Source: a virus
Length of the DNA: 62,365 nucleotides
Virus record (IMG/VR): IMGVR_UViG_3300012920_000037
Span: 1 to 62,365 of that record
Strand: one strand, 5' to 3'
Made by a program: the position numbers and the translations under genes. The notes under the pieces are model-generated. The model made no database searches and was not told where the DNA came from. It was given only the letters and a program-made list of their open reading frames with translations. The stretch's first letter is position 1; each line of letters starts with the position of its first letter. Below, piece after piece: positions 6,265 through 34,498 of the stretch.

Positions 6265-6585
6265 ATGAACAAATTTATTGACGAAGGCTTAAAGGCTGGG
6301 TATGAATTTATTATTATAGAACCACAAGAGGGCTACAATGAAGCAATTGTGGCTTTTGATAGAGGCAGACTTGTATATGATACAGAAATGCTTATGGACG
6401 CCATGAGGAAGTATCACCATTGGGAATACGGCACTGCTATAACTTGGTTTGAATATAACACGTTAGCTCTCACACATATGGAGGGTGGACCATTATTTTT
6501 TGAACCAGAGGAGAAATATTACTTGACACATGAAGACAAACCTGTTACATTAGAAGTACGCAAGAAAATCATGGAGGACAAATGA
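6265..6585 (+). CDS. Hypothetical protein (106 aa) upstream of the gp47/46 fusion
   Basis: The start is set by GGAGG at 6254-6258 and by the promoter upstream. The product MNKFIDEGLKAGYEFIIIE... is acidic and mixed alpha/beta, with several aromatic residues (HHWEYGTAITWFEY). I recognise no family. Its 3' end overlaps the next gene by four bases and contains an internal promoter (6523-6551), so the codons YYLTHEDKPVTLE double as regulatory sequence for the recombination gene. Confidence 0.65.
   Translation: MNKFIDEGLKAGYEFIIIEPQEGYNEAIVAFDRGRLVYDTEMLMDAMRKYHHWEYGTAITWFEYNTLALTHMEGGPLFFEPEEKYYLTHEDKPVTLEVRKKIMEDK
6523..6551 (+). promoter_or_regulatory. sigma70-type promoter, copy 5 of 9, inside a coding region
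   Basis: TTGACA at 6523-6528, 17-bp spacer ending in CTGT, TACATT at 6546-6551, 30 nt before the gp47/gp46 start. Its geometry is identical to the intergenic copies although it lies in codons of the preceding gene. Confidence 0.7.
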
Positions 6586-9500: not shown

Positions 9501-9743
9501 ATGGCTATCCGCCTTGCGTTGATCTCCGTATCGTCTTTACCTAAGCCGTCGTGGTTTATTCTCGATGAACCTGCAACCGCTCTCGATGCTGAGCACATGG
9601 AAGGCTTCACGAGACTATTGCAAATGATCAAGGCTCAATTTAAGACTGTACTGTTGATTACTCACCTAGATTCTCTCAAGGATGTAGTCGATAAGACAAT
9701 TGAAATTGATAAGGTCGATGGATATGCACACGTCAATTTGTAG
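6582..9743 (+). CDS. Single-chain Mre11-Rad50 (T4 gp47-gp46 / SbcD-SbcC) fusion
   Basis: 1,053 aa. Residues 1-330 form a calcineurin-type nuclease with HISDTHI, HTGDLAH, LGNHDGN, YHGAI and GDIHRTQ, the metal ligands of Mre11/SbcD/gp47. From about residue 370 an ABC/SMC-type ATPase begins: Walker A GKNYSGKS near 397-404, a long coiled coil interrupted by the zinc hook CRFC at 726-729, signature LSMGSGAEKT, and Walker B ILDEPATALD near 993. This complex processes DNA ends for recombination-dependent replication. In T4 and most bacteria the two parts are separate genes. No stop or frameshift separates them here. It has its own promoter inside the preceding gene. Confidence 0.9.
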   Translation: MKRIAHISDTHIRNLKYHDEYRHVFNEIYDSLKQEQPDYIVHTGDLAHTKTQLSPEYFEMASNFLKSLADIAPTIMILGNHDGNLKNGDRQDAVTPVIEAMQHPNFTLLKNSGEYSPESGLTFNVLSVFDRSNWQKPSNNSSINIALYHGAIQGSLVGSDFSLDHGEDDVSIFGDFDYAMLGDIHRTQYLDKAKRVWYAGSTVQQNFGESELKGYLIWNIHSKDKHSVEKRLFRSPRPFITVSLNKDGTLPKRDVPRGSRLRLVSNYNLPVAKLKRACDYAQVKWSPYTVSFVNKAAHSSLAGSNGISAGKSINMRDEKNQEKFLLEFLKNKEIEQEIKDRVLELSREYLKKVSNGNEVSRNVLWDIRKMSWNNLFNYGKGNTIDFTKINGLVGIFGKNYSGKSSIIDAALFGLFNTTSKGERKNVHIINQNKERASCRLEIAVGDDVYKIARSLEKTTTKSKGREVQSAKTDLDFTKYNFGTQAESKNGDTRNKTDENIRKTFGSLEDFMMTSLAAQNDSFGFVNEGSTKRKEILAKFLDLQIFEQMNKLAKADSSEMRGVIKHLNSVDWEKKLARAKAEFEEIVEDITEQQSLCEKHKSRLTELKDEQQLIKDQVEAASQKEIDVDDVKSLLSKARKSLSSNSKEMDRLSTEIATKRSKIEDLTLRLPSLLEESTTAQEELDALEIIKSEIKETQKSVDKAKREKSRLQSKIDMLHDHEYDPNCRFCCDNEFVKKAEEAKVTIVDIQKDIENLNSAMLDLKMKASLINEVYSRAVVQDYEVQRDTLSKEQSEVRNMSLQWENCEGKVSLMERRIQDYEADIAYYNENIEAYENLTSLRRDLQAINKTVSLKEDQIKKCEVKVLEYMSEKGSSKRTIEEAEERIDQIKAAERDYIAYDLFVQATHANGISYEVIKSMMPVINAEIQKILSSIVDFEVFFDNDGDKLEVYLQHPKYDPRPLSMGSGAEKTIASMAIRLALISVSSLPKPSWFILDEPATALDAEHMEGFTRLLQMIKAQFKTVLLITHLDSLKDVVDKTIEIDKVDGYAHVNL

Positions 9744-17138: not shown

Positions 17139-17748
17139 ACTAACAGGTGAAGAAGAAGTTGAAGAAACAGAAGGTTCAACAATTAAAGTAAAGATTGTCA
17201 AAGCTGATTCTGAAGGTATGCCGGAAGAAGATGGTGTAAAAATTGAAGTTGTTGAGAAAGACAGAATCGAAGCCAAACTTAAGCTACGGTCTGCTATCAA
17301 TGGCGACTTAATGATTCTAGACCACAAAGACATCGACATCGTTATTAAGCAAGGAGATAAGAAGATTATAGCTTTTGCTAAAGAGACTTTGTCGGATTTA
17401 GTATACGGAGCAGAAGCTCGATTGCTTGAGTATTTGAGAAGAAATGGCTTGATTGAAATTGATTCTATCCAAGGCGGTAACATCTATGGATCTTTGGAGG
17501 GCAAATTGCAAGAAGGAAAAAAAACTGTTGAAGTCACACTGATGAAAATCTCTGAATGGATGGAAACAGAAGAGCCAATGATGTCTGGACGAACAGGGTA
17601 TGACGACATGCAAGATGATCACTTGTTGTCACCAGACGGAGAATTCTCAACAGAACTCGGAGAAGTACCTCACGAAGAGGAAAAGGGGTCAATCCGACAA
17701 CACAACCTTTTCGCTCCATATTTATATGGGAGATATACCTATGAGTAA
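17122..17748 (+). CDS. Hypothetical head-module protein
   Basis: 208 aa. The N-terminal half is beta-rich and acidic (IKLTGEEEVEETEGSTIKVKIVKADSEG), and the middle part reads DLMILDHKDIDIVIKQGDKKIIAFAKE, followed by an acidic, low-complexity tail. No recognised motif. It lies between an unknown head gene and the GNAT cluster, overlapping genes on both sides, so it belongs to the head transcript. Function unknown. Confidence 0.55.
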   Translation: MPINIKLTGEEEVEETEGSTIKVKIVKADSEGMPEEDGVKIEVVEKDRIEAKLKLRSAINGDLMILDHKDIDIVIKQGDKKIIAFAKETLSDLVYGAEARLLEYLRRNGLIEIDSIQGGNIYGSLEGKLQEGKKTVEVTLMKISEWMETEEPMMSGRTGYDDMQDDHLLSPDGEFSTELGEVPHEEEKGSIRQHNLFAPYLYGRYTYE

Positions 17749-18772
17749 CTATCACCTATTAGTGGAGAGTTGGAGAAATTTCTTTCGTGCTCAAGTAAGA
17801 GGTGCGAGACCTAATGATGGAGCTCGCATGCGCTCACCTGAAGAAAAGTTCAACGAGAAGCACGATCAATTCTTTTACAAAAAATCTCTTTGGGGATATC
17901 GTTCAGACGAGCAAAAGTACAGCGAACCAAAACTAGTGTCTGAGGAAGAGATGATAAAAATAATCACGAACCCTCGGAACAATACTCACATTATAGTCAG
18001 GCCGGCCTCGCTATCTAAATTTGGTGAATTTTACGATTGGAGAAAATTTAAATTTTTAAATTCAAAAGCAGAAGAAATTATAAAACAGAGAGAAGAAGAA
18101 AAGCGAAAAGAAGAGGAACGTCGACAAGCTCGATCCAAGAAACAAATGGATCGTGTGAAAACCGATTCGGAACTAGCTCTAGCAAGTATCAATCTAGGCA
18201 CTGTGGACAATTTAGTTCTGTACCACACAAATATTATGGAAAGAGATGGGCTTCCTTTGGTTATAGGAATGATAGCTCTTGATGGTATGCACGGTCCTTG
18301 CATTCCAAACACTTTTCAAGTAAAATTTTCTGCTGTTAACAGGAAATTTCAACGACAAGGTTTTGGATCAATACTATATCGATTAGCAGCAGCTCACGCA
18401 AAAGTTAAAAAAAACGGAGGTATATCGTCAGATCACACCGCTGGAACTAGTAAAGATGCTGCTCGGAGGTGGGCTGCGATCGACAAAGATCCTGAATTCT
18501 ATAAAAGATCTACTAAAGGTGGTAGCGATACATTTGATTATGGTGGATACAATACGCCGGATGATCCTATGGATGATTGCGAAGATTTTACAAGCAATGG
18601 TGCTGTTACCAATCACAGTTACGGAGTGAGTGATAAAACTGTTGGAGTGTACAATGACCTTATATATGCTGATGAGTCTGGTAGAGGTTATGGGCCGAAA
18701 GATAGCACTGATCTTAACGACAAGGCTACCAGGGTATTCTCAGATAGCTATTCACATCGGACACGCGAATGA
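17741..18772 (+). CDS. GNAT-fold protein with type-B N-terminal tag (paralogue 1 of cluster)
   Basis: 343 aa. The start at 17741 is chosen because it yields the tag MSNYHLLVESWRNFFRAQ, with L-V-E|S at residues 7-10. A charged coiled coil (residues 112-140) is followed by a C-terminal GNAT-like domain: GPCIPNTFQVKFSAVNRKFQRQGFGSILYRLAAAHA, where Q-R-Q-G-F-G is a textbook acetyl-CoA-binding loop (motif A), then SSDHTAGTSKDAARRWAAID and DDPMDDCEDF. The last two elements are shared with the neighbours and replace the usual GNAT C-terminal strands. Likely an N-acetyltransferase; the target is unknown. The start overlaps the preceding stop. Confidence 0.7.
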   Translation: MSNYHLLVESWRNFFRAQVRGARPNDGARMRSPEEKFNEKHDQFFYKKSLWGYRSDEQKYSEPKLVSEEEMIKIITNPRNNTHIIVRPASLSKFGEFYDWRKFKFLNSKAEEIIKQREEEKRKEEERRQARSKKQMDRVKTDSELALASINLGTVDNLVLYHTNIMERDGLPLVIGMIALDGMHGPCIPNTFQVKFSAVNRKFQRQGFGSILYRLAAAHAKVKKNGGISSDHTAGTSKDAARRWAAIDKDPEFYKRSTKGGSDTFDYGGYNTPDDPMDDCEDFTSNGAVTNHSYGVSDKTVGVYNDLIYADESGRGYGPKDSTDLNDKATRVFSDSYSHRTRE

Positions 18773-19473
18773 ATAATCATAATCTAATAATGGAAGGTTG
18801 GAGAAAGTTTCTTAAGGAATCCAGATCAGCTGTAACCGAAATACAAGGAAAGCCGATCAACATGTTTTTCTATTCTAGAAACTCACCCGAGTTTAAAATA
18901 ATTCTTTATATTTTAGACGAGAAAGCTGGTGGTAGAAAGATTGCTAGAGTTATTGGGGGTGTAGAGTGTGTTGAGATCGAAGAGCCTTGTATACCCAAAA
19001 CATTGCAAGTTGGAACGTCATATAGAGACTCTGCCTTTGCCGGAATGGGACTTGGACCTCTTTTATATGATCTAGCTTTTTTTATAGCACAATCTATGGG
19101 ATATGGATTAACATCAGACCGAGAGATTGGGTCTAAGAGAAGCGCTAGAGACAGGTGGGAAAAAATACAATCAAGCCCTGATTATGAAAAACAAAGAACA
19201 AAAGATGGTAATGATAAATTTGATTACTATGGAGAAACACCAGATCCAGATGATGATTGCACAAAAGATGAATACGAGAATTCAAATGCAACAGATCATT
19301 CTTTCATCAAGAAAGATACCGGAAATACTCACGATGTACTCATGAAGCTTGAAGCTAATCATATGGACTATTTAGATAGCATTGGCGACACTTCAGCAGT
19401 ACAAAGATTCTTAAAAAATCTTAAGAGTCAATCAAATGACCTTTTTAACGATGAATACGATATGGCGACTTAA
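18769..19473 (+). CDS. GNAT-fold protein with type-B N-terminal tag (paralogue 2 of cluster)
   Basis: 234 aa. MNNHNLIMEGWRKFLKES contains two possible gp21 sites, I-M-E|G (7-10) and L-K-E|S (15-18). EEPCIPKTLQVGTSYRDSAFAGMGLGPLLYDLAFFIA (about residues 71-107) holds the GNAT motif A loop AGMGLG. Then come GLTSDREIGSKRSARDRWEKIQ, TPDPDDDC and a C-terminal DHSF, all conserved in the family. Coupled to the preceding paralogue by ATGA. Probable product of tandem duplication. Confidence 0.7.
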   Translation: MNNHNLIMEGWRKFLKESRSAVTEIQGKPINMFFYSRNSPEFKIILYILDEKAGGRKIARVIGGVECVEIEEPCIPKTLQVGTSYRDSAFAGMGLGPLLYDLAFFIAQSMGYGLTSDREIGSKRSARDRWEKIQSSPDYEKQRTKDGNDKFDYYGETPDPDDDCTKDEYENSNATDHSFIKKDTGNTHDVLMKLEANHMDYLDSIGDTSAVQRFLKNLKSQSNDLFNDEYDMAT

Positions 19474-19478
19474 TTACG

Positions 19479-20177
19479 ATGAAATCTTACAAACTACATA
19501 AAAACTTTAGAAAATTTCTTTTAAACGAAAGTGCAAACACAGAAGGACTATGCCTTTATCACAAAGGCGAAGGAACGAACTATCAAAGAATAATAATCTA
19601 CAAACCTGTACCAGATGAAGCAATTAAGATGAACCGCCAATATATAGACACCGTTATAATTGGAGCTATCACGTTTGACAACACAAAAAATGTTGTCGGA
19701 GAACCATGCATTCCGGAAACTTTTCAAGTCAGCACTGTCTTTACTCACAAAGACTATGAAGGCCAAGGGTTTCAAAAGCTGTTGATGGATTGTGCGTTCT
19801 ATGCACTAGGAAAAGAAAATAAGGGACTAACCTCAGATCAATATACCGGAACTAAACGTCGAGCTGAGAAAGCGTGGGTCAAAATTCAAAAATCAAGCGA
19901 ATATGAAAAACAGCAAACCAGAGCAGGCAACGATCAATTTGATTATTCAGACGCAACACCGGATCCGGATGATGATTGCAATATGCCGATGAAGTTTCCT
20001 TCAACTATGCACAGCTTTAAAAAGAAAAACTCATCAGATGGCAAAGCACAATACGACACAATGAAAACTAATCACAAAACTTTTGTTAACAAGTTAGGCA
20101 GAAACAAAGGCGCTTTTGAAAATATGCTGAAAAATAGATCAGTAGAAGATTTTAGAGTAAGATTCCGCGGACTATAA
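19479..20177 (+). CDS. GNAT-fold protein with type-B N-terminal tag (paralogue 3 of cluster)
   Basis: 232 aa. MKSYKLHKNFRKFLLNES is the tag with L-N-E|S at residues 15-18. GEPCIPETFQVSTVFTHKDYEGQGFQKLLMDCAFYAL (75-110) contains GQGFQK, a motif A loop in which the final glycine is replaced by Q, so cofactor binding may differ. GLTSDQYTGTKRRAEKAW and TPDPDDDC follow, then HSFKKK. Five bases separate it from the previous paralogue, and the membrane protein gene starts directly after its stop. Confidence 0.7.
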   Translation: MKSYKLHKNFRKFLLNESANTEGLCLYHKGEGTNYQRIIIYKPVPDEAIKMNRQYIDTVIIGAITFDNTKNVVGEPCIPETFQVSTVFTHKDYEGQGFQKLLMDCAFYALGKENKGLTSDQYTGTKRRAEKAWVKIQKSSEYEKQQTRAGNDQFDYSDATPDPDDDCNMPMKFPSTMHSFKKKNSSDGKAQYDTMKTNHKTFVNKLGRNKGAFENMLKNRSVEDFRVRFRGL

Positions 20178-22120: not shown

Positions 22121-22741
22121 ATGTCTAAAAAATTATTAAGAGAATTTCACGCACTATGTCCTGATGGAATGTGTCAAGATCTGTTGACCGAGCGAGAGAA
22201 AAAAGAAGTTAAAGAAGGCGCAATGTATTTAACTGGTCGCATTCAAACTGCCGATAAGAAAAACGGAAACGGTCGTAAGTATCCTGAAAAAGTTCTTCGG
22301 AGAGAAATGGATAACTACATGAAAATCGTAAATGATAATCGTGCATGTGGGGAACTTGACCACCCAGATGATTCGGTAATTAACCTTAAGAACGTATCTC
22401 ACATGGTCACTAAGTGTTGGTGGGAAGGCAAGGATGTAATGGGCAAAATTAAAGTCCTCGACACTCCTTCAGGTCGTATCCTCAAGGATCTGATCAACGC
22501 TGGTGTAAAGCTTGGTATTTCCTCTCGTGGTCTTGGTTCCGTCAAGGAATCAATGGGCGAAACTATTGTTGAAGATGACTTTCAACTTATTTGCTTTGAT
22601 ATCGTATCAGAGCCATCAACTCCCGATGCCTATGTGTATCCCGGAGAAGGATCAAAGAAAGCATTTAAGTTCTCGACAAGATTGCGAGAACAAAAAGAAA
22701 ATAATATTGACAATCTATTTAAGAAGATTCTTGGAGACTAA
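22121..22741 (+). CDS. 21: Prohead core protease (gp21)
   Basis: 206 aa. GELDHPDD (H81) and LGISSRGLGSV (S134/S135) correspond to the catalytic His and Ser of T4-type/herpesvirus-like assembly proteases, and FDIVSEPSTPDAYV matches their conserved end. The enzyme is activated in the prohead and cuts scaffold, gp23 and internal proteins after [L/I]-x-E. The N terminus has a possible autocleavage site L-L-T-E|R. Its presence, together with matching sites in many tagged proteins, supports the packaging model. It stops one base before the next ATG. Confidence 0.9.
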   Translation: MSKKLLREFHALCPDGMCQDLLTEREKKEVKEGAMYLTGRIQTADKKNGNGRKYPEKVLRREMDNYMKIVNDNRACGELDHPDDSVINLKNVSHMVTKCWWEGKDVMGKIKVLDTPSGRILKDLINAGVKLGISSRGLGSVKESMGETIVEDDFQLICFDIVSEPSTPDAYVYPGEGSKKAFKFSTRLREQKENNIDNLFKKILGD

Positions 22742-23167
22742 ATGAACAAAGAACAATTAAAGAAAACCCTTAAGCCTCTTATTAAAGAGTGCATCAAAGA
22801 AGTTATATTCGAAGAAGGAGTTCTCTCGGGAATCATTTCAGAAGTTGTTAAAGGTACGGGCGGTCAACGCATCGTCGAGACCCGGCAACCTCAACAATAT
22901 CAAAAACCACAAATTGATCATGAACTAGAAGAGCGCAAAAGAAAAGAGCGACGTCGCAAGATGCTTGACTCAATCGGACGAGATTCCTTTAATGGTGTCG
23001 ACCTTTTTGAAGGTACTACGCCGCTATCTAATAGAGATTCTGGTAGGTCATCAACTCCACATGGCTCAAAAGCACTGGACGGTGTTGCACCAAATGATCC
23101 CGGAGTTGATATCTCAGCTTTCGGGTCAAGTTCGGCAATTTGGTCAAAATTAGCAAAGGGAAAATAA
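22742..23167 (+). CDS. Possible prohead-core/tag-bearing protein downstream of gp21
   Basis: 141 aa. The N-terminal helix MNKEQLKKTLKPLIKECIKEVIFEEG is tag-like, and F-E-E|G (23-26) may be a cleavage site. The middle is strongly basic (ELEERKRKERRRKMLDSIGRD) and the end is Gly/Ser/Asp-rich (NDPGVDISAFGSSSAIW). I know no named homologue with certainty. Its position right after the protease is where T4-like phages keep small core proteins. The stop overlaps the bS21 start (TAATG). Confidence 0.6.
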   Translation: MNKEQLKKTLKPLIKECIKEVIFEEGVLSGIISEVVKGTGGQRIVETRQPQQYQKPQIDHELEERKRKERRRKMLDSIGRDSFNGVDLFEGTTPLSNRDSGRSSTPHGSKALDGVAPNDPGVDISAFGSSSAIWSKLAKGK

Positions 23168-23361
23168 TGGCTACCAACTACAAAATGAAGCCTCGTAAAG
23201 GCGAGAGCATGGAGCGGTTTATCAAAAGATTCACCAAGAAATGTAAGAAACTTGGAATTATCCAAGAGATGAGAGACAAAAGACATTTTACTTCTGATTC
23301 CGAGAGAAAGCGTCTTGCTCGTAAAAAATGGAGAGCAAACCTCAAGAAGAAGAAGAAATAA
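23167..23361 (+). CDS. Ribosomal protein bS21 homologue
   Basis: 64 aa, very basic. KGESMERFIKRFTKKCKKLG-IIQEMRDKRHFTSDSERKRLARKKW follows the bS21 pattern (…E..d.alRRFKr.ce k.G.l.E.R.re.fe.pserRkr…). bS21 sits near the anti-Shine-Dalgarno on the 30S subunit and affects initiation. Virus-encoded bS21 is known from marine phages. The start at 23167 overlaps the preceding stop; an upstream in-frame ATG would extend into the neighbour. It is placed among head genes, so it should be made late. Confidence 0.75.
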   Translation: MATNYKMKPRKGESMERFIKRFTKKCKKLGIIQEMRDKRHFTSDSERKRLARKKWRANLKKKKK

Positions 23362-23390: not shown

Positions 23391-23804
23391 ATGAGTTCAA
23401 ATTTTTATAGCGTAGGGCTAAATCACGTTGGGGCATATCAAGTAAGCGGCACACCACATATTAGCCATATTACTTTGACAACAGACCCTAACCACTCTGA
23501 TAGAATTCAGTTTCCAACGGTCACAAAAAATATTATAGTCAGATCCAACGACACTGTGGATATCAGAATTCACTTTGCCCCATTCACTGGTTCATATGGA
23601 TATGCGGACGATGCATCTACAAGCAATAACTTTATTATACTTGAGGGTGCTGGGCAAGTTGAATTGGACGCAAAGTGCAAAGAAATATTCATCTCTGCTC
23701 CAAGTGCTGGTGGTACAGAAGTGGTTCAAGTCTATGCAGAACTGACCAACATTCCAAGAGAAAGAATGTTTAGTTTGGATGGTGTTGATGGAGTGAGTAG
23801 CTAA
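23391..23804 (+). CDS. Beta-rich virion surface protein, short form
   Basis: 137 aa, beta-rich. It begins SVGLNHVGAYQVSGTPHI and ends VQVYAELTNIPRERMFSLDG. The next gene has the same beginning (KVGLQHAGSFISSGKPFL) and end (FDVYASLTNIPSERMYDLTG), with a large domain inserted between. Its location between protease and scaffold genes with a late-type motif upstream suggests a virion component such as a head decoration or fibre base. The stop overlaps the next start (TAATG). Confidence 0.65.
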   Translation: MSSNFYSVGLNHVGAYQVSGTPHISHITLTTDPNHSDRIQFPTVTKNIIVRSNDTVDIRIHFAPFTGSYGYADDASTSNNFIILEGAGQVELDAKCKEIFISAPSAGGTEVVQVYAELTNIPRERMFSLDGVDGVSS

Positions 23805-24850
23805 TGAGTACGTATAAAGTTGGTTTGCAGCACGCTGGATCTTTTATATCTTCCGGCAAGCCGTTCCTTAAGACAAACTCGTCTTTGGCTGATGGCGCTA
23901 CTGAGTATATAAAGTTTCCAAATGTGACGAAAAAAATTAAAGTTAAAAATCATTCAGCATCCGGCGTTCTTAAAATTGGCTTTGCCGACAATGCTCGAAG
24001 AGCTTTTGATATGCCAAGTTTAACTGCTCAAGATAGATTTGATGGAACTTTATCATCTGGGGTAGGTCTATCAGCTGTAACAGTTTCTTTTTGGTTTAAA
24101 GATACGGCATTATCCACAGTATTAAGACTTGTAGAGTTTACTGGAACTGGAGTTACAAACACGAGGCTTCAAGGTCAAAATAGCTCCGGCGCTGGTGGTC
24201 TAAGATTTAGAGTTCAAGGAATCAATGCAAATACAGCTGGTGGTGTTACGTCCATAAACACCTGGCATCAAGTCACTATTGTGTTAAGTGGAGCAGATAA
24301 TAAACTTTATGTAGACGGCGACCTAAAAATTACTAACACTACAACCATGGTCCCACCTACTGGTATTTCATTTGGCGATTCAAGCACAGCGAATCATGAT
24401 GGAATTTATGACGACATTTATGTTTTTAATGCAGCGCTTACTGGACCAGAAGTTTTAGAACTGTACAATGAAGGTTCCTATTTTGACCCAAGGGATCATT
24501 CAAGATCATCAGACTTGCAGTCTTGGTGGGCTTTTGAAGATAATGCTTACAGAACATATTTTTCCTCTAATGATACAACATCAACCATTATTGACCGCAT
24601 CGGAAGCCATAATTTAACAAAAGCCGGCAGCGGTACTGGTGCTTTTGTAAACGGGAGACAGCTAGATACAGCCATAAACTCGCACTCCCTAATTTTGTCC
24701 CCAGGTGCAGAAATCGAATTGAATGTAAAAACAAAGTCGATGTTCTTATTTGCAGACGGAGCAACGCAGGATTTTGACGTATATGCTTCATTAACGAATA
24801 TTCCTAGTGAAAGAATGTACGATTTAACCGGACCGGGAATCGATGAGTAA
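23804..24850 (+). CDS. Surface protein with inserted LamG/concanavalin-like domain
   Basis: 348 aa. Residues 1-65 and 286-348 are homologous to the two halves of the preceding protein. Residues about 67-285 form a LamG-like beta-sandwich: VSFWFKDT, TWHQVTIVLSGADNKLYVDGDLKI, ISFGDSSTANHDGIYDDIYVFNAALTGPEVLELYNEG. LamG folds often bind glycans. The pair therefore shows a carrier domain with and without a lectin-like insertion. Overlaps both neighbours by one to four bases. Likely displayed on the particle; the ligand is unknown. Confidence 0.7.
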   Translation: MSTYKVGLQHAGSFISSGKPFLKTNSSLADGATEYIKFPNVTKKIKVKNHSASGVLKIGFADNARRAFDMPSLTAQDRFDGTLSSGVGLSAVTVSFWFKDTALSTVLRLVEFTGTGVTNTRLQGQNSSGAGGLRFRVQGINANTAGGVTSINTWHQVTIVLSGADNKLYVDGDLKITNTTTMVPPTGISFGDSSTANHDGIYDDIYVFNAALTGPEVLELYNEGSYFDPRDHSRSSDLQSWWAFEDNAYRTYFSSNDTTSTIIDRIGSHNLTKAGSGTGAFVNGRQLDTAINSHSLILSPGAEIELNVKTKSMFLFADGATQDFDVYASLTNIPSERMYDLTGPGIDE

Positions 24851-27006
24851 TGTCAAAAGAATTTGGATGGGCATATGTTGTTGGATCCCAAGCCTCAGGG
24901 CCTAAAGGCTCCATTCAGATATCGGGAGATGCGACTAGGCTAGATCACGATCCAAATCTATTTTGGTCTGATGAGGACAACGCGCTCTTGGTTTCTGGTG
25001 ATATCGTTGCGCACAATTTCGAAATTCAAAACCAAACAAAAACAGTCTTTAACTTTGAAGTCTCGGGATCATCGATCTTCGGAGATACAGAAGATGACCT
25101 ACATCAGTTCACAGGATCTCTCGATATCACAGGGAACGTTACCGCTGTAAACTATTATGGTTGGGGTGGTGACCTCGATGGCGTACCTATTAATTATGCG
25201 ACAAACTTCGCAGACAACAGAATTGTTACCTCGGTTACTGGAGATACGGTTAATGCAGAGGAAAATCTGACGTTTGACGGTGCGCTCTTGAATGTATCCG
25301 GAGACATAAATGCTCTAGAGATAGACGCATCACAGTTCAGCGGTAGCATCGCACTCTTTGACTCTGCGGATATTGTGGACCTTGAAGCAACCGAGTTTAC
25401 CGATGGGACTTTATCGATCCAAACAGGGTCTATATCGAACGCTGATCACATTCAATCAACAACGATCGAGGGCTTATTGACTTCGCCATCTCAGACAAAC
25501 ATTACCGAGGTTGGCACATTAACGAGTCTCAATGTAGCAAATGATGCGACGATCAACGGAACCCTCTATGTAAAGACTGCTGACAATCGAGTTGGCGTGA
25601 ATGTCTCAGATCCTCAAGCAACGAATGAAATCTTATCACCAACAACTCAGTTGCGCCTCACAAGCCAAAGAGAGATGTTCGGCATACAAGATTTAGAATA
25701 TACCGACCTACACACAGACACAAATGGTAACTTCTCAATATCTCCGTCAAACAACTTGACAAACATTCTAGGCGACGCTGTTATAACTGGAGATCTGTTG
25801 GTGTCCGGAACGCTTAGCGCCAGAATAACGGACTTCAACGTTTCGGCAGACACCATGACTCTCGGAGATGAAGCGACAGATATTATCACTGTAAATGCTC
25901 AAACAATGAATGCTCCCAATAATCTGGAGATCAATAGTGTTCTTTTTGTCTCTGCATCCACAGTGGGAGTTGGATCATACTCTACAGCCAAATTTGGCGT
26001 AACATCACCTTCAAATCAACTAGAGCTTGGAAATGGAACTCAAAACCTATCTGTGAGCGTCACAAATGGCTCTACAAGCATTTTAACAAACAATTCGACC
26101 TTAGACATAGGCAATAACACAAACGTCCTTGGAGAGCTTGTGGTGGGCTCTAATGGCGATATAATTCTTGATAACGCAGGTCAAGTATCGGCATCTGTCT
26201 CTGTATCGTCAAACACGGGACACTTTACGAACATCACATCAACTATGATTACAAATGGTAATTCAATTATCAATAACGACAGCATTCAAACTCCAACTCT
26301 TGACGCACCAACAGTAAATTCTACAAACATTGTAGGTACACTTAACACCGCTACGCAGCCAAACATAACAAGTTTAGGGACGCTAACTTCACTTAATGTT
26401 GCAAATGCAGCAAACATCGGAGGACCCATAGCGGTAAACAAATCAAGTGCCGATCGGATGGTCGAGATCAAAGACTCAAACAATGCACAATTGAGATTGA
26501 CAAACTCGGAGTTTATCTTCGGTCTAGCAAATCACAATTATGTTGATCTCAATGCTAACTCCAGTGGCGATCTTGAGATTACCCCAGTGTCTGGTAAAGT
26601 AATAGTGCCCAATCTTAAATTGACCAACGTCCAACATGGTACATCAAACAACTTTCTGTCTGTAGATGCAAATGGAGACATTGTTATATGTCCACCATAT
26701 CAGACAGACATTGAAGTCAGAAACAGAACAGTTGTCACAGCAGACTATAACGTCGCAGTGAATGATTATTTTGTTGGCATTCAAGCTACACAGAATCTTG
26801 TAGTTACTTTACCTGATGCGTCTACTTTGTTCAATGGGCAGATCATGGTTATTAAAGACGAACTAGAAAACGCAAATCAATACACCATTCAGGTAGCAGC
26901 TCAGCCCAATCAGTTCATTGAAAATAGACAAAGTATAACCTTGTCTTCTCCCGGATCCGCCATTAATATATATTGCGATGGTACGTCCAAATTCTTTATT
27001 ATGTAA
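24850..27006 (+). CDS. Large beta-repeat fibre/structural protein (718 aa)
   Basis: It contains many short repeats of the type LxVSGDI / LTSLNVANxATINGTLYV, consistent with a trimeric beta-helix or beta-prism shaft. An internal duplication is evident: TNITEVGTLTSLNVAND...LRLTSQREMFGIQDLEYTDLHTDTNGN (about 215-300) recurs as PNITSLGTLTSLNVANA...LRLTNSEFIFGLANHNYVDLNANSSGD (about 500-580). The end (GQIMVIKDE...ITLSSPGSAINIYCDGTSKFFIM) looks like a C-terminal knob shared in style with other fibres here. Tail fibre or head fibre; no chaperone is recognised nearby. Confidence 0.7.
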   Translation: MSKEFGWAYVVGSQASGPKGSIQISGDATRLDHDPNLFWSDEDNALLVSGDIVAHNFEIQNQTKTVFNFEVSGSSIFGDTEDDLHQFTGSLDITGNVTAVNYYGWGGDLDGVPINYATNFADNRIVTSVTGDTVNAEENLTFDGALLNVSGDINALEIDASQFSGSIALFDSADIVDLEATEFTDGTLSIQTGSISNADHIQSTTIEGLLTSPSQTNITEVGTLTSLNVANDATINGTLYVKTADNRVGVNVSDPQATNEILSPTTQLRLTSQREMFGIQDLEYTDLHTDTNGNFSISPSNNLTNILGDAVITGDLLVSGTLSARITDFNVSADTMTLGDEATDIITVNAQTMNAPNNLEINSVLFVSASTVGVGSYSTAKFGVTSPSNQLELGNGTQNLSVSVTNGSTSILTNNSTLDIGNNTNVLGELVVGSNGDIILDNAGQVSASVSVSSNTGHFTNITSTMITNGNSIINNDSIQTPTLDAPTVNSTNIVGTLNTATQPNITSLGTLTSLNVANAANIGGPIAVNKSSADRMVEIKDSNNAQLRLTNSEFIFGLANHNYVDLNANSSGDLEITPVSGKVIVPNLKLTNVQHGTSNNFLSVDANGDIVICPPYQTDIEVRNRTVVTADYNVAVNDYFVGIQATQNLVVTLPDASTLFNGQIMVIKDELENANQYTIQVAAQPNQFIENRQSITLSSPGSAINIYCDGTSKFFIM

Positions 27007-27189: not shown

Positions 27190-29769
27190 ATGTCTAAATT
27201 TGTAACTGGAGTTTTTAAACTTGATCAACAAGTAACATTGTTTGACATGTCCGAAATGGTCCCGGGCACCCTTGAACTTCCAGGTGATGCAGTTAAAGAG
27301 TTGTCTCAACTCTCTTCTGACGTTTTACTTGGTCTTGGACTTGAACCACAAGTTGGTGGTGGAAAAATTGTTCGTGAATCTCACTTGAAAATCGTTGAGT
27401 CTGAATTGGAAGCTGAAATAGCTCGTATTGACGGTGAATTGGCTAGTGAAATTGCACGCGCTCAAGCTGCTGAATCTACAAACGCTACTGCTATCTCTAA
27501 TGAAGCAGTTCGTGCACAAGCTGCTGAAGCCTCTCTTCAAGGTGAAATCGATGCTGAAGAAACCCTTCGTGCTTCTGAAATCACTCGCGTAGAAGGTCTT
27601 GTATCTTCTGAAGAAGCATCTCGTATTGCTGCTGTATCTTCTGAAGCTACTGCACGTCAAGGTGCGGATACTACTCTTCAAGGCAACATTGATGCTCTTT
27701 CTGGTGCTGTTGCTTCTGACTTCTCTGCTATGGAAGCTGCTTTTGTAGCTGACTTGGCTGCTGAAGAAGCTGCACGTCAAGCTGCTGATGCTGGTCTTTC
27801 TGGTGAATTGGCTACTGAAAGAGGTCGTATCGACGCTATGTTGTCTGGATCTTCTGTTGATCTTGATCAATTGATTGAACTTGTTGACGCTTATGAATTG
27901 GCTGATACTAACATCATTAGTTCTATCACTACGTTGCAAGGCGACCTTGCTACTGAAATCACTAACCGTGAAGCTGATGTAGACGCAGAAGAAGTTCGCG
28001 CTTTGGCTGCTGAAGCTGTATTGGCTGGTAATATCGCTAATGAAGAAGCGGCACGTATTGCTGCTGATGGTACTGCGACCACTGATCGCGCTGCTATCCG
28101 TTCTGAGTTTGCTGCTGCTGACTCTTCTGAACAAGCTGCTCGTGTTGCTGCTGACAACGTTCTTCAGGGCAACATTGATTCTGAAGCTGCTTCTCGTCTT
28201 GCTGCTGACCAAGGTCTTCAAGCAAATATCGATTCTGAAGCTGCTACTCGCGCTGCTGCTGATAACGCTTTGACTAGCGATCTTAGCACTTTGGCTGATG
28301 AATTGTCTGCTGAAGAAGCATCTCGTATTGCTGGTGATAACGCTCTTCAAGCAAATATCGATGCTGAAGAATCTGCTCGTCAAGCCGCAGATACTACATT
28401 AACTACTAACTTGAACTCAGAGATCGCTCGTGCACAAGCTGCCGAAGCTACTCTTCAAGGTAACATTGATGCAGAAGAAACTGCTCGTATTGCTGCTGTT
28501 GCTGCTGAAAATGCTGCTATGCTTGCTGCTGTTGCGGTTGTACAAGCTGATGTAGATCAAAATGAATCTGATGCTGATGCTGCTTTCGCTGCAGAAGAAG
28601 CCGCTCGTATTTCTGGAGACACTACTCTTCAAGGTAACATTGATGCTCTTTCTGGTGCTGTAGAAGCTGATTTCGCTGCTATGGAAGCTGCTTTTGTAGC
28701 TGACTTGGCTACTCTTCAAGCTGATGTAGATCAGAATGAATCTGATGCTGATGCTGGTATCGCTGCTGTTGCTGCTGATCTTGCATCTTACGAAGCTTCT
28801 AATGACGCTGCTTTGGCTCAAGAAGTTACTGATCGTACTGCTGCTGTTTCTGCAGAAGCTGCTTCTCGTCTTGCTGCTGACCAAGGTCTTCAAGCACAGA
28901 TTGACAACATCATCTCTAACACTGATCCAGCTGCTTTGGATTCTATGACTGAGATCGTTGCTGCTTTCCAAGCTGAAGATGGTAACTTGCAAAACTCAAT
29001 CACTACTTTGGCTGCGAATCAAACTTCTGCTTTGAATGCATTGTCTGGTGCTGTAGCTGCTGACTTTGCTGCTATGGAAGCATCTATGGTTGCTGACTTG
29101 GCTGCTCTTCAAGCTGACGTTGATGGTAACGAAGCTGATGGTGATACTGATCGTGCCTTGATTCGTACTGAATTTGCTGCTGCTGATGCAGCTCTTGAAA
29201 GTGATTTGGATGACGAAATTGCTCGTGCTTTGGCTGCTGAAGCTGTTTTGGCTGCTTCTGTTGCTTCAGAAGAAGCTACTCGCCAAGCTGCTGATACTAC
29301 CCTTCAAGGCAACATTGATGCTCTTTCTGGTGCAGTAGCTGCTGACTTCTCTGCTCTTGAGACTGATTTCACTTCTGAAATTGCTTCTCTTCAAGCTGAT
29401 GTTGATCAAAATGAAGCTGACGCTGACGCTGCGATTGCTGGAGAAATCTCTCGTGCACAGACTGAAGAAGCTCGTATCGAAGCTAAGCATGACGCACACT
29501 TTGATGGTTTCATCAAGCTTGCTTTCTTGACTGAGGCTGACGCTGTAATGGGTCTTGCTACTCACTACATAGTTAATGCATCTTCCGCTAAGACGTTTGC
29601 TTTCCCAGCTATCGCTGATGAGCACTTCTTCATGGTCAAGGTTGCAGCTGGTTCTAACCCTGTTGAGTTCACTGGTAACATTAACGGTGACGCAGACAAC
29701 TCAATCACAGTGCACCCAGGTGCTTCTGTAATGGTTGTTTCTCACGGTGGTGAATTGTACTTGTTCTAA
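27190..29769 (+). CDS. Long alpha-helical coiled-coil tail fibre protein (859 aa)
   Basis: After an N-terminal beta-rich attachment domain (residues 1-70, VTGVFKLDQQVTLFDMSEMVPGTLELPGDAVKEL), the protein is a chain of alanine-rich repeats such as EEASRIAADTTLQGNIDALSGAVAADFAAMEAAF and LQADVDQNESDADA, typical of trimeric coiled-coil fibre shafts. The last 100 residues are beta-rich (HYIVNASSAKTFAFPAIADEHFFMVKV...GGELYLF), probably a C-terminal tip. Codons are strongly biased to GCT/GAA/CTT, which creates long antisense open frames. It lies between a weak hairpin and a strong terminator, so it is its own transcript. Confidence 0.8.
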   Translation: MSKFVTGVFKLDQQVTLFDMSEMVPGTLELPGDAVKELSQLSSDVLLGLGLEPQVGGGKIVRESHLKIVESELEAEIARIDGELASEIARAQAAESTNATAISNEAVRAQAAEASLQGEIDAEETLRASEITRVEGLVSSEEASRIAAVSSEATARQGADTTLQGNIDALSGAVASDFSAMEAAFVADLAAEEAARQAADAGLSGELATERGRIDAMLSGSSVDLDQLIELVDAYELADTNIISSITTLQGDLATEITNREADVDAEEVRALAAEAVLAGNIANEEAARIAADGTATTDRAAIRSEFAAADSSEQAARVAADNVLQGNIDSEAASRLAADQGLQANIDSEAATRAAADNALTSDLSTLADELSAEEASRIAGDNALQANIDAEESARQAADTTLTTNLNSEIARAQAAEATLQGNIDAEETARIAAVAAENAAMLAAVAVVQADVDQNESDADAAFAAEEAARISGDTTLQGNIDALSGAVEADFAAMEAAFVADLATLQADVDQNESDADAGIAAVAADLASYEASNDAALAQEVTDRTAAVSAEAASRLAADQGLQAQIDNIISNTDPAALDSMTEIVAAFQAEDGNLQNSITTLAANQTSALNALSGAVAADFAAMEASMVADLAALQADVDGNEADGDTDRALIRTEFAAADAALESDLDDEIARALAAEAVLAASVASEEATRQAADTTLQGNIDALSGAVAADFSALETDFTSEIASLQADVDQNEADADAAIAGEISRAQTEEARIEAKHDAHFDGFIKLAFLTEADAVMGLATHYIVNASSAKTFAFPAIADEHFFMVKVAAGSNPVEFTGNINGDADNSITVHPGASVMVVSHGGELYLF
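27440..29480 (+). repeat. Tandem coding repeats of the fibre shaft
   Basis: Imperfect repeats of units such as GCTGCTGAC..TCTTCAAGG recur dozens of times, including near-identical blocks at 27660-27760, 28620-28720 and 29280-29360 (TTLQGNIDALSGAV). They invite recombination and shaft-length variation. Confidence 0.8.
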
Positions 29770-29874: not shown

Positions 29875-30276
29875 ATGTCAATAACAAAATATACAGCCGG
29901 AACTTCGGCACCTGATGGCTCTTCTGTTGGCGTATCGCCTGGTGCATCTCACAATACAGCGATCTGCATTGGTTTTACTGATGTTGGAGTCTATGGAAAA
30001 AATGGAGCAACTTGGGAACTTGTTGGCTCTACTAGTAGCGATGACAAAGTTGTTTTCGTTCCTTTCGAAACATACTCAGAGGTTTTCTTTAAGTCTGAAT
30101 CTGGGCAAGAAGAAACTGTACGTGTGGTATTCATGGAGGACTCTTTGATTAAAGCCGCTGCACCAGCTCCCGCATCTGTAAGCGAGATCAGTGATGTTCC
30201 AGCTTTCACCTCAGCTGACGCCGGTAAGATTCTTTCAGTTGACGCTGGTGGGAATCTTGTTTGGATCACACGATAA
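29875..30276 (+). CDS. Beta-rich fibre-associated protein, short form
   Basis: 133 aa. The start at 29875 (MSITKYTAG) follows GGAGG; an upstream ATG lies inside the terminator. The C-terminal segment ISDVPAFTSADAGKILSVDAGGNLVWITR is homologous to VDEVPIYTASDDGKFLTIRSDGSLAWLAAN in the next protein, and both have SGxEETVRVxF / GSDETIRVSF. It looks like a small beta-sandwich virion protein; the longer neighbour is the same module plus a LamG domain. Function unknown, probably receptor binding or decoration. Confidence 0.6.
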   Translation: MSITKYTAGTSAPDGSSVGVSPGASHNTAICIGFTDVGVYGKNGATWELVGSTSSDDKVVFVPFETYSEVFFKSESGQEETVRVVFMEDSLIKAAAPAPASVSEISDVPAFTSADAGKILSVDAGGNLVWITR

Positions 30277-30290
30277 CGGAGGATCTAGAT

Positions 30291-31433
30291 ATGAAAAAAC
30301 AAAAATTTATGAAACTGACCGCTCACACAGCAGAACCAGACTTGGCCAATTCGTTTGCTTTCCCAGCTACTCACAATGCTGAGATTTCAATCGTGTTTGG
30401 AGGAAAAGATATTTCCGTTCATGGGTACGATGGTTCAGTTTGGACGACACTTCATACTTGGGATGGCGAATCTGATCAATTTACAGCAGATAATTGGGTA
30501 CATGAGTATACAAACTTTTATCTCAAATCATTGACCGGGTCCGATGAAACTATTCGAGTCTCTTTCTTTTCCGCAGAAAAATATCAAGGATCCACACCTT
30601 CTTTAGCCGGCATTAATCGCGATGTAAAGCTTTATGATGTTGATGAGGTTCCAATTTATACTGCATCTGATGATGGTAAATTTCTTACTATCCGCTCTGA
30701 CGGCTCTTTGGCTTGGCTTGCTGCGAATGAATCTTTCATAGTGGCTCCTGAGGGCGGAGATGAAGGCGGAGGTAACGCCCCACCTCAAGCTAACTTCCTA
30801 GAAGAGCTTGATAGGTTTAATTTTACTAATGGAATAATTAACGACAATGGGTCCGGACAAGGACACAGAGCGAGGTTCAATTTGGACACAGACAACATCA
30901 TTGCCTATGGCGGAGATGGACAGCCTGTGGAAGAAGAGTTTACTATCTCTTGGTGGATGTACATTAATTCTAATCAAGATGCTGGAAATATTAGTCTCTT
31001 TGGAAGATATGACCCACCAGCGGATAGATTCGCATGCTCACTTGGTGGGAACTTAAGTTCAAATATACACTTCCCAACTTACATAGGTACTCAAGTCATG
31101 TTCAATTCTAATACTGGAATTGGCGTTGCTGACCAGTGGGTTCATGTGGCCTATACATGCAAGTCAAATGGATCTAATCTCATACTTAGTCTTTATGTAA
31201 ATGGAAATAAACTTAATAGAACTAAATCCTTTCCTTTGGGAACTAAGCTTCTTCCTAGTGCTTCAAATGCTGAGATTTCTATTGGTGGTAGCGGAATGTC
31301 GGGCAAATCTGCAAAAGGACAATTCGATTCAATTCAAATTGAAGACGGTATTGCTCTAACAGATGCTCAGGTTGCTGCCATTGCTGCTCAAACAGATCGT
31401 CAAATGGGAATTGAAGCTGCTTCTTTGCTTTAA
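30291..31433 (+). CDS. Beta-module plus C-terminal LamG-like domain protein
   Basis: 380 aa from the ATG after GGAGG (an earlier in-frame ATG overlaps the previous gene). Residues 1-150 are paralogous to the preceding short protein. A Gly/Glu linker (EGGDEGGGNAPP) leads to a LamG-like domain (about 165-380): FTISWWMYINSNQDAGNISLFGRY, QWVHVAYTCKSNGSNLILSLYVNGNKL, FDSIQIEDGIALTDAQVAAI. It ends QTDRQMGIEAASLL, closely matching the end of the 1,432-aa adhesin (QSDRRMSIDDASQI). Probably a glycan-binding virion protein. Confidence 0.7.
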   Translation: MKKQKFMKLTAHTAEPDLANSFAFPATHNAEISIVFGGKDISVHGYDGSVWTTLHTWDGESDQFTADNWVHEYTNFYLKSLTGSDETIRVSFFSAEKYQGSTPSLAGINRDVKLYDVDEVPIYTASDDGKFLTIRSDGSLAWLAANESFIVAPEGGDEGGGNAPPQANFLEELDRFNFTNGIINDNGSGQGHRARFNLDTDNIIAYGGDGQPVEEEFTISWWMYINSNQDAGNISLFGRYDPPADRFACSLGGNLSSNIHFPTYIGTQVMFNSNTGIGVADQWVHVAYTCKSNGSNLILSLYVNGNKLNRTKSFPLGTKLLPSASNAEISIGGSGMSGKSAKGQFDSIQIEDGIALTDAQVAAIAAQTDRQMGIEAASLL

Positions 31434-31553: not shown

Positions 31554-32720
31554 ATGGGAGATGATTTAATGTCCAACATGCTAGAACAGGCAATTGCCGA
31601 TGCCGCCGCACTTAGAGAGCAAGCTATCAAAAACGCAGAACAATCAGTTCTTGACAAGTATTCGAAGCAGATCAAGGAAGCGGTTGATCAGATGCTTGAA
31701 ATGGATGATGCTCCATCAAGAGCGGATGAAATGATTGCCGAAGCAGAAGAAGAGATTATGCAAGAAGAAGAAGGTGGGATGGCTGCCGCAGCACCTGCTG
31801 GTGAATCTGCGACGATTGAAGCTCCTGCTGCTTATGATTCTCGCCCAGGTTCTGAAGATGTATACGTCAGAATGTCTGCAATGCTTGACAACCTTCCATT
31901 TGATGAAAACGACGAAATTGAACTTGACTTCGGAGATCTTGACCCAGAACCAATCGACCTCTCACAAGGCGCAGAAAGCGCCTCAGGCGATCTTGGCGGC
32001 TTAGATATGGGTACACCTGACGACGCTGCTGGAGACGATCTGGGTGGAGATTTGGACCTTGGAGGAGATGATTTGGGTGGAGACGATGATCTCGACCTTC
32101 AACTTCAAGAAGTCCTCAATATGCTCGAGGAAGAAGTTGATACTCTAGAAGAAGCAACCACTGTTTATTACGACCCAGAATCTGACGCAACAGGAGTCTG
32201 GAGACACAATCGATCTCGAGAAGAGTTCAACGCAGACATGGGAAAACTACTTTACGACGAAGAAGAGTCTGAGTCCGAAGAAGATGAAGACACTACAGGT
32301 CAAGTTAACGAATTACATGAGACAATAGATTCTCTGACGCAACAAAACTCACAATTAGAGCGCGTCCTTACCAAGTTGGAGGTCCACCTTGAGGAGTCTT
32401 TATTGTCAAACGCAAAACTTTTATATCAAAACCGCACACTAGCTGATGCCTCCCTGAATGAGCGACAAAAATCTAAAATTGTCGAAGCCATCGCAAATGC
32501 GGAGTCTCCGAAGGAAGCTAAAAAACTTCATGAGACGCTCAAAGCTACAGTGGGATCGACGCCTAACAGCAAAAAAGGTCCACAATCACTGAGCGAGTCG
32601 GTCAATCGACGTTCGAACTTAAGTTCTATGTTGAATTCGAGACAAAACATTAACGAAAGCAAGCAAAGCGCTGATCCTTTTAAGGAAAAGATGCAGAAGC
32701 TTGCAGGCATAAAAAAATAA
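31554..32720 (+). CDS. 22: Prohead scaffold/core protein (gp22-like)
   Basis: 388 aa; a second ATG 15 bases downstream (MSNMLEQAIADAAALREQA) is also possible. It is acidic and helical, with a Gly/Asp tract (GGDLDLGGDDLGGDDDLDL) like that in the portal. Several [I/L]-x-E sites (for example TIE|A) could be cut by gp21. The end SADPFKEKMQKLAGIKK is typical of gp22-type scaffolds, whose basic C terminus contacts the capsid protein. It stands immediately upstream of gp23 as in T4. It should form the prohead core and be degraded during maturation. Confidence 0.8.
   Translation: MGDDLMSNMLEQAIADAAALREQAIKNAEQSVLDKYSKQIKEAVDQMLEMDDAPSRADEMIAEAEEEIMQEEEGGMAAAAPAGESATIEAPAAYDSRPGSEDVYVRMSAMLDNLPFDENDEIELDFGDLDPEPIDLSQGAESASGDLGGLDMGTPDDAAGDDLGGDLDLGGDDLGGDDDLDLQLQEVLNMLEEEVDTLEEATTVYYDPESDATGVWRHNRSREEFNADMGKLLYDEEESESEEDEDTTGQVNELHETIDSLTQQNSQLERVLTKLEVHLEESLLSNAKLLYQNRTLADASLNERQKSKIVEAIANAESPKEAKKLHETLKATVGSTPNSKKGPQSLSESVNRRSNLSSMLNSRQNINESKQSADPFKEKMQKLAGIKK
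31985..32105 (+). repeat. GGDL-coding repeat in scaffold gene
   Basis: Degenerate GGAGAT/GGTGGA units encode GDLGG and GGDDLGG runs; part of it is nearly identical in DNA sequence to the portal-gene tract. Confidence 0.75.
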
Positions 32721-32737: not shown

Positions 32738-34498
32738 ATGTCTATTATCGAAACTCTTACAGAAGGGATGGTACAACGCAATATGCAACAAGAAGGTGCC
32801 GCTCTTTTGAACAAGTGGACCAATACTGGTCTTCTTGAAGGTTTGTCTGATGACAACCAAAAAGCTTCAATGGCTCGTCTATTGGAGAACCAAGCTCGCG
32901 AACTTCTTCGTGAGTCTAACACAATGGCTGGTGGAAACATTGAAGGTTTCGCTGCTGTTGCATTCCCAATCGTTCGTCGTGTATTCGCTGGATTGATTGC
33001 GAACGACTTGGTTTCTGTACAACCAATGTCTCTTCCATCTGGATTGATCTTCTTCCTCGATTTCTCTTTTGGTGAAAACGTTGGAGACGGTGGTGATGCT
33101 GGTACTCGTTTGGGTCAAGCTTCTGGATCTTCCATCTATGGTCAAGGAATCCTTGCATCACAAGTAACTGGTGGGGTTGTCTTAGATTCTGCTAACTTGG
33201 ATGGTCAACCATATGCATTCGGTTCTGCCTATACTTCACCTACTGGTACAATTGCAACCAGTGGTCTCACTGTTAACGCAGCAGTTACTGCTGGTCTCAA
33301 AGGTGAAGCAATCGCAGCCAACTTGCTGAACGGTACAAGTCTTGTTGGAGATGCCGTTGATAGCAACGAAGCAGTTGGCTCTTTGATTGGGTGGGATCCT
33401 GATCTTTTGGTAGAGCACAGTGGATCTGGATTAAAGGTTATGAGTGTTGACTTCTCAACTATTACAGACTTTAACGAAGATCATTTGTCTCAAATCATTC
33501 TTCCTTTCTCTGGTGCTACAGATGGTCAAGATGATTCTGTTCAAGTTCGTCGTTTAACCAAAGAAGATCCTAACAACGCTGGTTCTTTGTTGTTCTTCTA
33601 CGTAAGACCTGCTGGTGCATTCAATACCCCTTCCGAACGCGACCACGACGCTGGTTCTTACGAGAAGCGCGATCAATACGGTCCTGGTGGTGTTGATATC
33701 GGTTCAATCCTCACCACAGCAATGCAATTGGAAGCAGAAACCAACATTCCAGAGATCGACATCAAGGTTGACTCAATCGCAATCACAGCGACAACCAAGA
33801 AGTTGAAAGCAAAGTGGACTCCAGAATTGGGTCAAGACTTGAACGCTTACCACAACTTGGATGCTGAGGTTGAATTGACTTCTATCCTCTCTGAGCAAAT
33901 CGCTCTTGAAATCGATCGTGAAATCTTGGCTGACCTTGTAAACGGTGCTACTGCTGGTACTTTCTACTGGTCTCGTTCACCTGGTTTGTTTGTAAACCGT
34001 GCAACTGGTTTGGAAATTGGTGCTCAGGCTGCTGCTCCTGACTTCACCGGTACTGTATCTGAATGGTACGAAACTTTGATCGAAACTATCAATGATGTTT
34101 CTGCACAAATCCATCGTAAGACTTTGCGTGGTGGTGCTAACTTTGTTGTTGTTTCTCCTGAAGTTGCAAACGTTCTTGAGTTCACTGCTGGTTTCCGTGC
34201 AAACGTTACTGCTGATGCAGACAAAGGAGACATCGGCGCTGTTAAGGTTGGTTCTTTGAACCGTAAGTTCGACGTTATCGTTGATCCTTACTTCCCACGT
34301 AACGCTCTCTTGGTTGGACGTAAAGGTTCTTCTTTCTTAGAGTCTGGTTATGTTTACGCACCTTATGTGCCTCTCCAAACTACACCGACCATCTTCGGAC
34401 CTGAAGACTTCGTTCCTCGTAAGGGTGTTATGACTCGCTACGGTAAGAAAATGGTACGTCCTGATATGTACGGTTTGGTTATCGTTCGCGATCTATAA
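32738..34498 (+). CDS. 23: Major capsid protein (gp23)
   Basis: 586 aa. The N-terminal 59 residues form a helical delta domain ending ARELLRE|SNTMAGGNIEG, a gp21 cleavage site at E59 equivalent to T4 LNE|A at residue 65. The mature protein begins with GFAAVAFPIVRRVFAGLIANDLVSVQPMSLPSGLIFFLDF, clearly the gp23 N-terminal arm and strand. The end ITRYGKKMVRPDMYGLVIVRDL style also fits. Codon use is optimised relative to neighbours (GCT, GGT, AAC, CGT), as expected for the most abundant virion protein. A strong terminator follows. Confidence 0.95.
   Translation: MSIIETLTEGMVQRNMQQEGAALLNKWTNTGLLEGLSDDNQKASMARLLENQARELLRESNTMAGGNIEGFAAVAFPIVRRVFAGLIANDLVSVQPMSLPSGLIFFLDFSFGENVGDGGDAGTRLGQASGSSIYGQGILASQVTGGVVLDSANLDGQPYAFGSAYTSPTGTIATSGLTVNAAVTAGLKGEAIAANLLNGTSLVGDAVDSNEAVGSLIGWDPDLLVEHSGSGLKVMSVDFSTITDFNEDHLSQIILPFSGATDGQDDSVQVRRLTKEDPNNAGSLLFFYVRPAGAFNTPSERDHDAGSYEKRDQYGPGGVDIGSILTTAMQLEAETNIPEIDIKVDSIAITATTKKLKAKWTPELGQDLNAYHNLDAEVELTSILSEQIALEIDREILADLVNGATAGTFYWSRSPGLFVNRATGLEIGAQAAAPDFTGTVSEWYETLIETINDVSAQIHRKTLRGGANFVVVSPEVANVLEFTAGFRANVTADADKGDIGAVKVGSLNRKFDVIVDPYFPRNALLVGRKGSSFLESGYVYAPYVPLQTTPTIFGPEDFVPRKGVMTRYGKKMVRPDMYGLVIVRDL

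Follow-up and report, generated by a model that had tools for sequence, protein, structure and literature searches.

A small jelly-roll-type protein of a phage head operon has probably been duplicated, with one copy carrying an exchangeable LamG domain that would be presented on the capsid as an adhesin; we put the probability of this reading at about 0.6. The two genes lie side by side in the window, by which we mean the whole 62,365-nucleotide stretch of viral DNA that was analysed. The paralogy, insertion site, duplication, cassette exchange, repeat expansion and gene neighbourhood described below were read from sequence. The first-pass annotation of the window had noticed the inserted LamG paralogue and was right, but it understated the case. 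It overlooked the swapping of the LamG cassette, the build-up of repeats in one loop and a second pair of proteins with and without LamG in the same window. What is new here is that the LamG insert is exchanged between phages as a cassette.

The plain carrier (p137, 137 aa; 23391..23804, plus strand) is followed by the inserted carrier (p348, 348 aa; ORF at 23804-24850, plus strand), the stop of the first overlapping the start of the second by one base. Both ends are shared, as had been claimed: blastp aligned the N-terminal ends with 34% identity over 70 aa (E 8e-7) and the C-terminal ends with 40% over 68 aa (E 5e-11). Local alignment scores of the ends (82 and 106) were far above the maxima from 2,000 shuffles each of the same composition (50 and 41). 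The inserted carrier is composed of an N-terminal chassis half (aa 1-61; 23804..23986), a LamG/pentraxin-like insert (aa ~62-293; 23987..24682) and a C-terminal chassis half (aa 294-348; 24683..24850) that terminates in GxGIDE, all on the plus strand. Each chassis half is 100% identical to that of the related contig L001. The insert of ~230 residues (aa ~63-294) stands in place of a loop of ~20 residues, and aa 89-217 match Pfam Laminin_G_3 (PF13385; E 2.7e-11, 44.3 bits compared with a curated cut-off of 27.6). Together with the modelled LamG fold, this bears out the earlier description of about 220 extra residues forming a LamG-like sandwich in a loop. Because the plain/inserted pair was found again in dozens of related contigs, a chance resemblance is excluded.

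Structure prediction of both proteins had been suggested as a check, and in the AlphaFold2 models the shared ends form the same eight-stranded sandwich; their folds are alike, the opposite of unrelated. The p137 model (pLDDT 76, pTM 0.71) is a jelly-roll-type sandwich without an insert, with strands at residues 21-29, 37-40, 43-52, 58-61, 82-84, 88-92, 98-102 and 110-122. In the p348 model (pLDDT 84, pTM 0.81; built on an alignment of 15 sequences) the chassis strands lie at 21-28, 33-37, 40-49 and 55-59 and, beyond the insert, at 296-298, 303-306, 312-318 and 322-334. Strand order thus agrees around the insert (21-61 and 82-122 in p137, 21-59 and 296-334 in p348), and a complete LamG/pentraxin domain is modelled between strands 4 and 5. 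Residues 63-294 of this model match 4dqa, a Bacteroides carbohydrate-binding protein (VIA Z 20.3), as well as PAPP-A (Z 20) and pentraxins (Z 18). The carrier is accordingly predicted to be an eight-stranded jelly-roll-type sandwich with LamG in its strand 4/5 loop.

The chassis itself gave only fold matches of Z ≤7.8, generic for sandwiches, among them the SH1 and HCIV-1 capsid chains, the HFTV1 turret chain and the KHP40 cement protein. No fold family can be assigned at this level, and a known fold family for the carrier was rejected since none of the matches exceeded Z 8. Residues 1 to ~18 are poorly predicted in the models, yet no motif of the family is more conserved than the one they carry, which reads VGLNHVGAYQVSG in plain carriers. 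These N-terminal ~18 residues may be an arm that folds only on a partner.

Scans of IMG/VR yielded well over 100 contigs with carriers, all of them uncultured. The catalogue was built with separate N-half and C-half profiles, and counts refer to 111 non-redundant loci. Carriers occur in tandem, with one to three paralogues per locus: a single plain carrier (46 loci), a plain and an inserted carrier as in the window (28), two plain carriers and an inserted one (21), two plain carriers (4), a fused plain-plain gene plus an inserted carrier (3), and an inserted and a plain carrier placed around gp21 (1). At the remaining loci contig ends interrupt the carrier set. Adjacent carrier genes overlap by one base, the next start being the previous end, in 41 pairs. 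Two plain carriers are fused into one gene of 284-293 aa at four loci (L106:9472-10326, L107:7973-8854, L114:8380-9234 and L144:9791-10672), which suggests that neighbouring paralogues assemble jointly in one complex; the one-base overlaps are compatible with this as well.

Among the 111 relatives, some carriers have a short loop, and in the others the loop accommodates a single LamG domain, a pair of them, or at least three (220-1,510 aa). Its length is 220-276 aa in 45 inserted proteins and ~310 in two; three proteins with ~525 aa have two LamG domains, one with 838 aa has three, and in two with ~1,470-1,510 aa three were detected. Pfam matched LamG in 50 of the 53 inserted proteins (15/15, 26/28 and 9/10). 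One without such a match is L106, and the other two are presumed to be L114 and L116, which neighbour it. That these three hold some other kind of insert was rejected, as a LamG-insert profile from which they had been left out matches every one of them (E 1e-24 to 8e-29; best shuffled E 0.02). The search for other insert types at the same loop, which the first-pass annotation had proposed, therefore met LamG alone, singly or repeated, among the 111 non-redundant relatives.

Using three different members as queries, we found no sequence relatives of the carrier among ~50,000 annotated phages. Bacterial and archaeal genomes yielded none either. It is absent near the head genes of the annotated phages closest by capsid protein (Flavobacterium immuto, Microcystis Mel-JY01 and LR756508). 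Profile searches gave no match to any Pfam family, PHROG or PDB chain sequence, known decoration proteins in these collections included, so that the carrier defines a family where such searches are silent. In the genome to which L002 belongs, an extra orphan plain carrier (L201; G004:C1:129999-130406, minus strand) lies amid replication genes, ~18 kb from the head cluster, adjoining an HNH endonuclease-like gene and a 518-aa ORF.

The order of events was addressed by a chassis-only tree (88 rows, 135 columns, unrooted). Wherever a locus bears an insert, its first plain copy falls in a single clade of this tree (96/92), apart from the inserted copies. A tree holding the inserted copies together was 4.4 log units better and was not rejected (p-AU 0.585), which makes several independent LamG insertions unnecessary. 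The simplest account would be a duplication followed by one LamG insertion. As the tree is short and unrooted, we favour this history rather than regard it as proved. It agrees with the earlier claim that LamG was gained in a duplicated copy, as do the tandem duplicates that carry no insert. Conversely, the plain copy could be the product of LamG loss from an inserted ancestor, and with an unrooted tree gain and loss are indistinguishable by counts alone. We consider loss very unlikely, since a lone plain carrier is found at 46 loci and a pair of plain carriers, with no inserted copy, at four, the largest single-plain-carrier group is a supported clade of its own (98*; 99/97), and the data do not reject one clade for the inserted copies.

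We compared the LamG insert with its flanks in closely related phages. Along 12 kb the window is nearly identical to L068 and L001, whereas identity in the LamG insert drops to 55-73% with indels. Six pairs of loci share this pattern. Given as identity of the N/C ends, identity of the insert and best-fit breakpoints in p348 numbering, they are window/L001 (100/100, 58%; 67-291), L099/L124 (98/100, 30%; 52-284), L014/L015 (92/93, 43%; 66-289), L090/L103 (92/88, 42%; 52-288), L006/L010 (94/82, 43%; 69-280) and L083/L085 (84/94, 37%; 69-280). The breakpoints are close to the modelled LamG limits (63-294), and identity inside the best-fit segments is 16-54% when gaps are counted as differences. 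Some inserts resemble those of other phages better: the L001 insert is 84% identical to that of L069 although the ends are only 69/80% identical, and the L124 insert is 76% identical to that of L111 with ends at 74/88%.

Trees of the insert point in the same direction. A clade of window and L001 was rejected (p-AU 1.4e-58), as was one of L099 and L124 (p-AU 2.0e-57). L015 grouped with L004/L009, L010 with L012/L014 and L003 with L083/L080/L089 (100/100 each), contradicting the chassis relationships. For L090/L103 the tree test gave no significant sign of exchange with another lineage (p-AU 0.49). Formal tree proof of exchange with other lineages thus covers two pairs, window/L001 and L099/L124, and exchange in the others is based on identity profiles, tree positions and breakpoints. 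Taken together, these comparisons show that the whole LamG domain is recombined into a fixed chassis, that is, traded as a cassette. Because the relatives are all uncultured contigs, chimeric metagenome assemblies could be suspected of producing the apparent swaps, and so could targeted hypermutation. Both are scarcely credible as explanations: six pairs show swaps independently with similar breakpoints, and in two pairs the inserts match other phages better (76-84%, with indels), which neither process predicts.

The major capsid protein gp23 of the window has a hypervariable segment of its own (33245-33655, aa ~170-306), 50% identical to L068 compared with 98% elsewhere in gp23. In 14 relatives the mean column identity is 0.13-0.4 at aa ~140-320 compared with ~0.75-1.0 in the core, and the segment maps between residues 143 and 249 of T4 gp23. 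LamG identity did not follow the identity of this hypervariable part (Spearman -0.07, p 0.48, from non-independent pairs). The idea that LamG and the variable part of gp23 are swapped in concert was therefore rejected, and a direct contact between LamG and gp23 is unsupported.

The carriers are embedded in a head-gene cluster. The portal (14146), a gp21-type prohead protease (22121..22741, plus strand; Pfam Peptidase_S77 E 2.3e-32, PHROG head maturation protease E 1.4e-60) and gp23 (32738..34498, plus strand; Pfam Gp23 E 1.6e-73, T4 gp23 in PDB E 5e-30) follow the T4-like gp20-gp23 order, with the terminase at 12565. A gp22-like scaffold (31554..32720, plus strand) precedes gp23; its phmmer matches in immuto (E 1e-8) and Mel-JY01 (E 4e-5) are the genes just before gp23 in those phages. 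Among the relatives, carriers lie downstream of gp21 in 101 of 102 loci with a visible gp21, at a median distance of ~680 bases; wherever gp22/gp23 can be seen (43 loci), the carriers precede them. Between protease and carriers the window has a gene for ribosomal protein S21 (23140-23361; PF01165 E 2.6e-10). Such bS21 genes are already known in phages (PMC6375957, PMC9723584); this one is kept at the head-cluster position in most relatives, and its placement beside head genes is notable.

The inserted carrier overlaps by one base with the gene of a putative fibre-like protein of 718 aa (p718; 24850..27006, plus strand), which is locally variable between the window and L068 (26542-26842). An 859-aa repetitive coiled-coil-like protein (p859; 27190-29769) with many internal DNA repeats follows and is likely a long fibre shaft. 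Next come p133 (29875..30276, plus strand), a second short protein without LamG that is homologous to the N-terminal part of p380 (E 1e-16), and p380 itself (30291..31433, plus strand), its paralogue with a C-terminal LamG (aa 214-362; Pfam Laminin_G_3 E 1.2e-12). Relatives of p380 have one, two or three C-terminal LamG domains. This pair repeats the scheme of p137 and p348, without and with LamG, using unrelated parts. Directly after gp23, a protein of 1432 aa (34607-38905) with Ig-like (PF16403) and LamG domains is a candidate long head fibre. Together, p348, p380 and this protein bring the LamG proteins encoded around the head genes of the phage to at least three. The latter two have a common LamG type (E 1e-14); the idea that p348 acquired its LamG as a copy from one of them (p380, E 0.38; the 1432-aa protein, E 0.03) is unsupported.

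In phage lambda, the gene of the decoration protein gpD lies between protease/scaffold and major capsid protein, a usual place for decoration proteins. Compared with it, the position of the carrier suggests a decoration protein through guilt by association, and from this neighbourhood and the weak fold resemblances we infer a probable location on the head, which the first-pass annotation had also considered. Given the fibre-like genes in the same cluster (p718, the coiled-coil-like p859 and p133/p380), the carrier could instead be a neck, collar, whisker or fibre-attachment protein, in which case LamG would act near the tail or on fibres as an ordinary receptor-binding module; LamG has been described in jumbo-phage tail fibres (PMC7824862). 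We regard such a location as unlikely. The sheath (42365) and tube (45140) genes are elsewhere in the window, and in compact relatives, L018 for example, the carrier stands directly before S21 and the scaffold, comparable to the place of lambda gpD.

A capsid-bound adhesin is known from T4, where Hoc attaches variable strings of Ig domains to a conserved domain that binds the capsid; Hoc of Muldoon has 10 Ig domains, and among Hoc-like capsid fibres a shorter and a longer form can be encoded by one phage (PMC10385173). Adhesive roles of decoration proteins have been reviewed (PMC7602432). The carrier resembles Hoc in having a conserved, probably anchoring part, beta-sandwich adhesion domains whose number varies, and large repeat-expanded versions, all in T4-like phages. 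Unlike the Ig domains of Hoc, which hang off a terminal capsid-binding domain, the carrier LamG lies within a loop of the base, which would leave both carrier ends anchored. The carrier also differs from Hoc in having dedicated plain paralogues alongside, and the two have no detectable sequence relationship. Pfam found no Ig match in the inserted carrier; its inserts are LamG and thus no Hoc-type Ig string.

In the HFTV1 turret, a hexamer of a base protein is combined with a trimeric head that has a carbohydrate-binding domain (PMC12494034). It is similar to the carriers in that a small beta-rich base protein has a larger partner bearing glycan-related domains. The plain carrier matches turret chain 8qpg_TD at the level of unrelated sandwiches (Z 7.4, rmsd 3.4, 94 aligned), and the turret differs in its archaeal host and in that base and head are not described as mutual paralogues. 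Jumbo-phage virion proteins share the Laminin_G_3 family; in the available text of that source they are reported with tail fibres and other virion parts, whereas a loop-inserted, exchanged LamG cassette on a head-cluster protein is not described there (PMC7824862). Domain shuffling in phage host-interaction proteins is likewise familiar, mainly from tail and receptor-binding proteins, and the accessible portion of that account mentions no head-operon jelly-roll that offers a fixed loop as a socket (PMC10684548). We treat Hoc and the HFTV1 turret as analogues only; Hoc is the closest working analogue and HFTV1 the second.

By this analogy, the inserted carrier is most likely a capsid-surface adhesin that would work like T4 Hoc, built from unrelated parts. 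We hypothesize that a small jelly-roll-type head-operon protein was duplicated in a clade of T4-like phages and that one duplicate took the pentraxin-like lectin domain LamG into its strand 4/5 loop. The plain copies would probably form a base on the capsid lattice through the strongly conserved, flexible N-terminal arm and the C-terminal tail. The inserted copy would join the same base by both ends and point LamG outward, as Hoc does with its Ig domains on T4. Since both chassis flanks are conserved, homologous recombination can change LamG without disturbing the base; by replacing or multiplying the domain, phages would trade binding specificities, and exchange probably changes what the particle sticks to.

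LamG on the carrier might instead have a structural, masking or defence-evading role, its variability reflecting escape rather than altered adhesion, and the glycan link consists of fold-level similarity and scattered conserved residues. Such a role seems improbable to us, given that exchange of whole domains and repeat expansion fit binding modules and that carbohydrate or cell binding has been ascribed to Hoc and to several further decoration proteins (PMC7602432, PMC10385173). Extending the adhesin reading, the capsid-base family could be a universal socket whose jelly-roll-type loop takes interchangeable LamG domains singly or in strings, while a conserved hetero-oligomer of plain paralogues keeps the anchoring constant and trading re-aims the adhesion of the whole head. 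We hold this wider view tentatively, at slightly below even odds. If it is true, the head of a widespread uncultured phage group, in addition to its tail fibres, bears a modular adhesion device of clean socket-and-cartridge design that is under strong diversifying exchange. The targets of such a capsid lectin (host, mucus, particles or algae) become directly testable, and the carrier is a natural scaffold with a loop tolerating inserts of 220 to 1,500 residues.

Three further regions of the window are of interest. At 17744-20177, three adjacent proteins look similar, the first with a sub-threshold match to GNAT acetyltransferases (E 0.0024), and relatives differ in the number retained. SbcD-like and SbcC-like subunits are encoded in a single ORF of 1053 aa at 6582-9743, and by two ORFs in the L002 genome. 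The tail sheath (42365-45103) has 912 aa compared with 496 positions in the matching PHROG tail-sheath profile and probably has an insert of its own.
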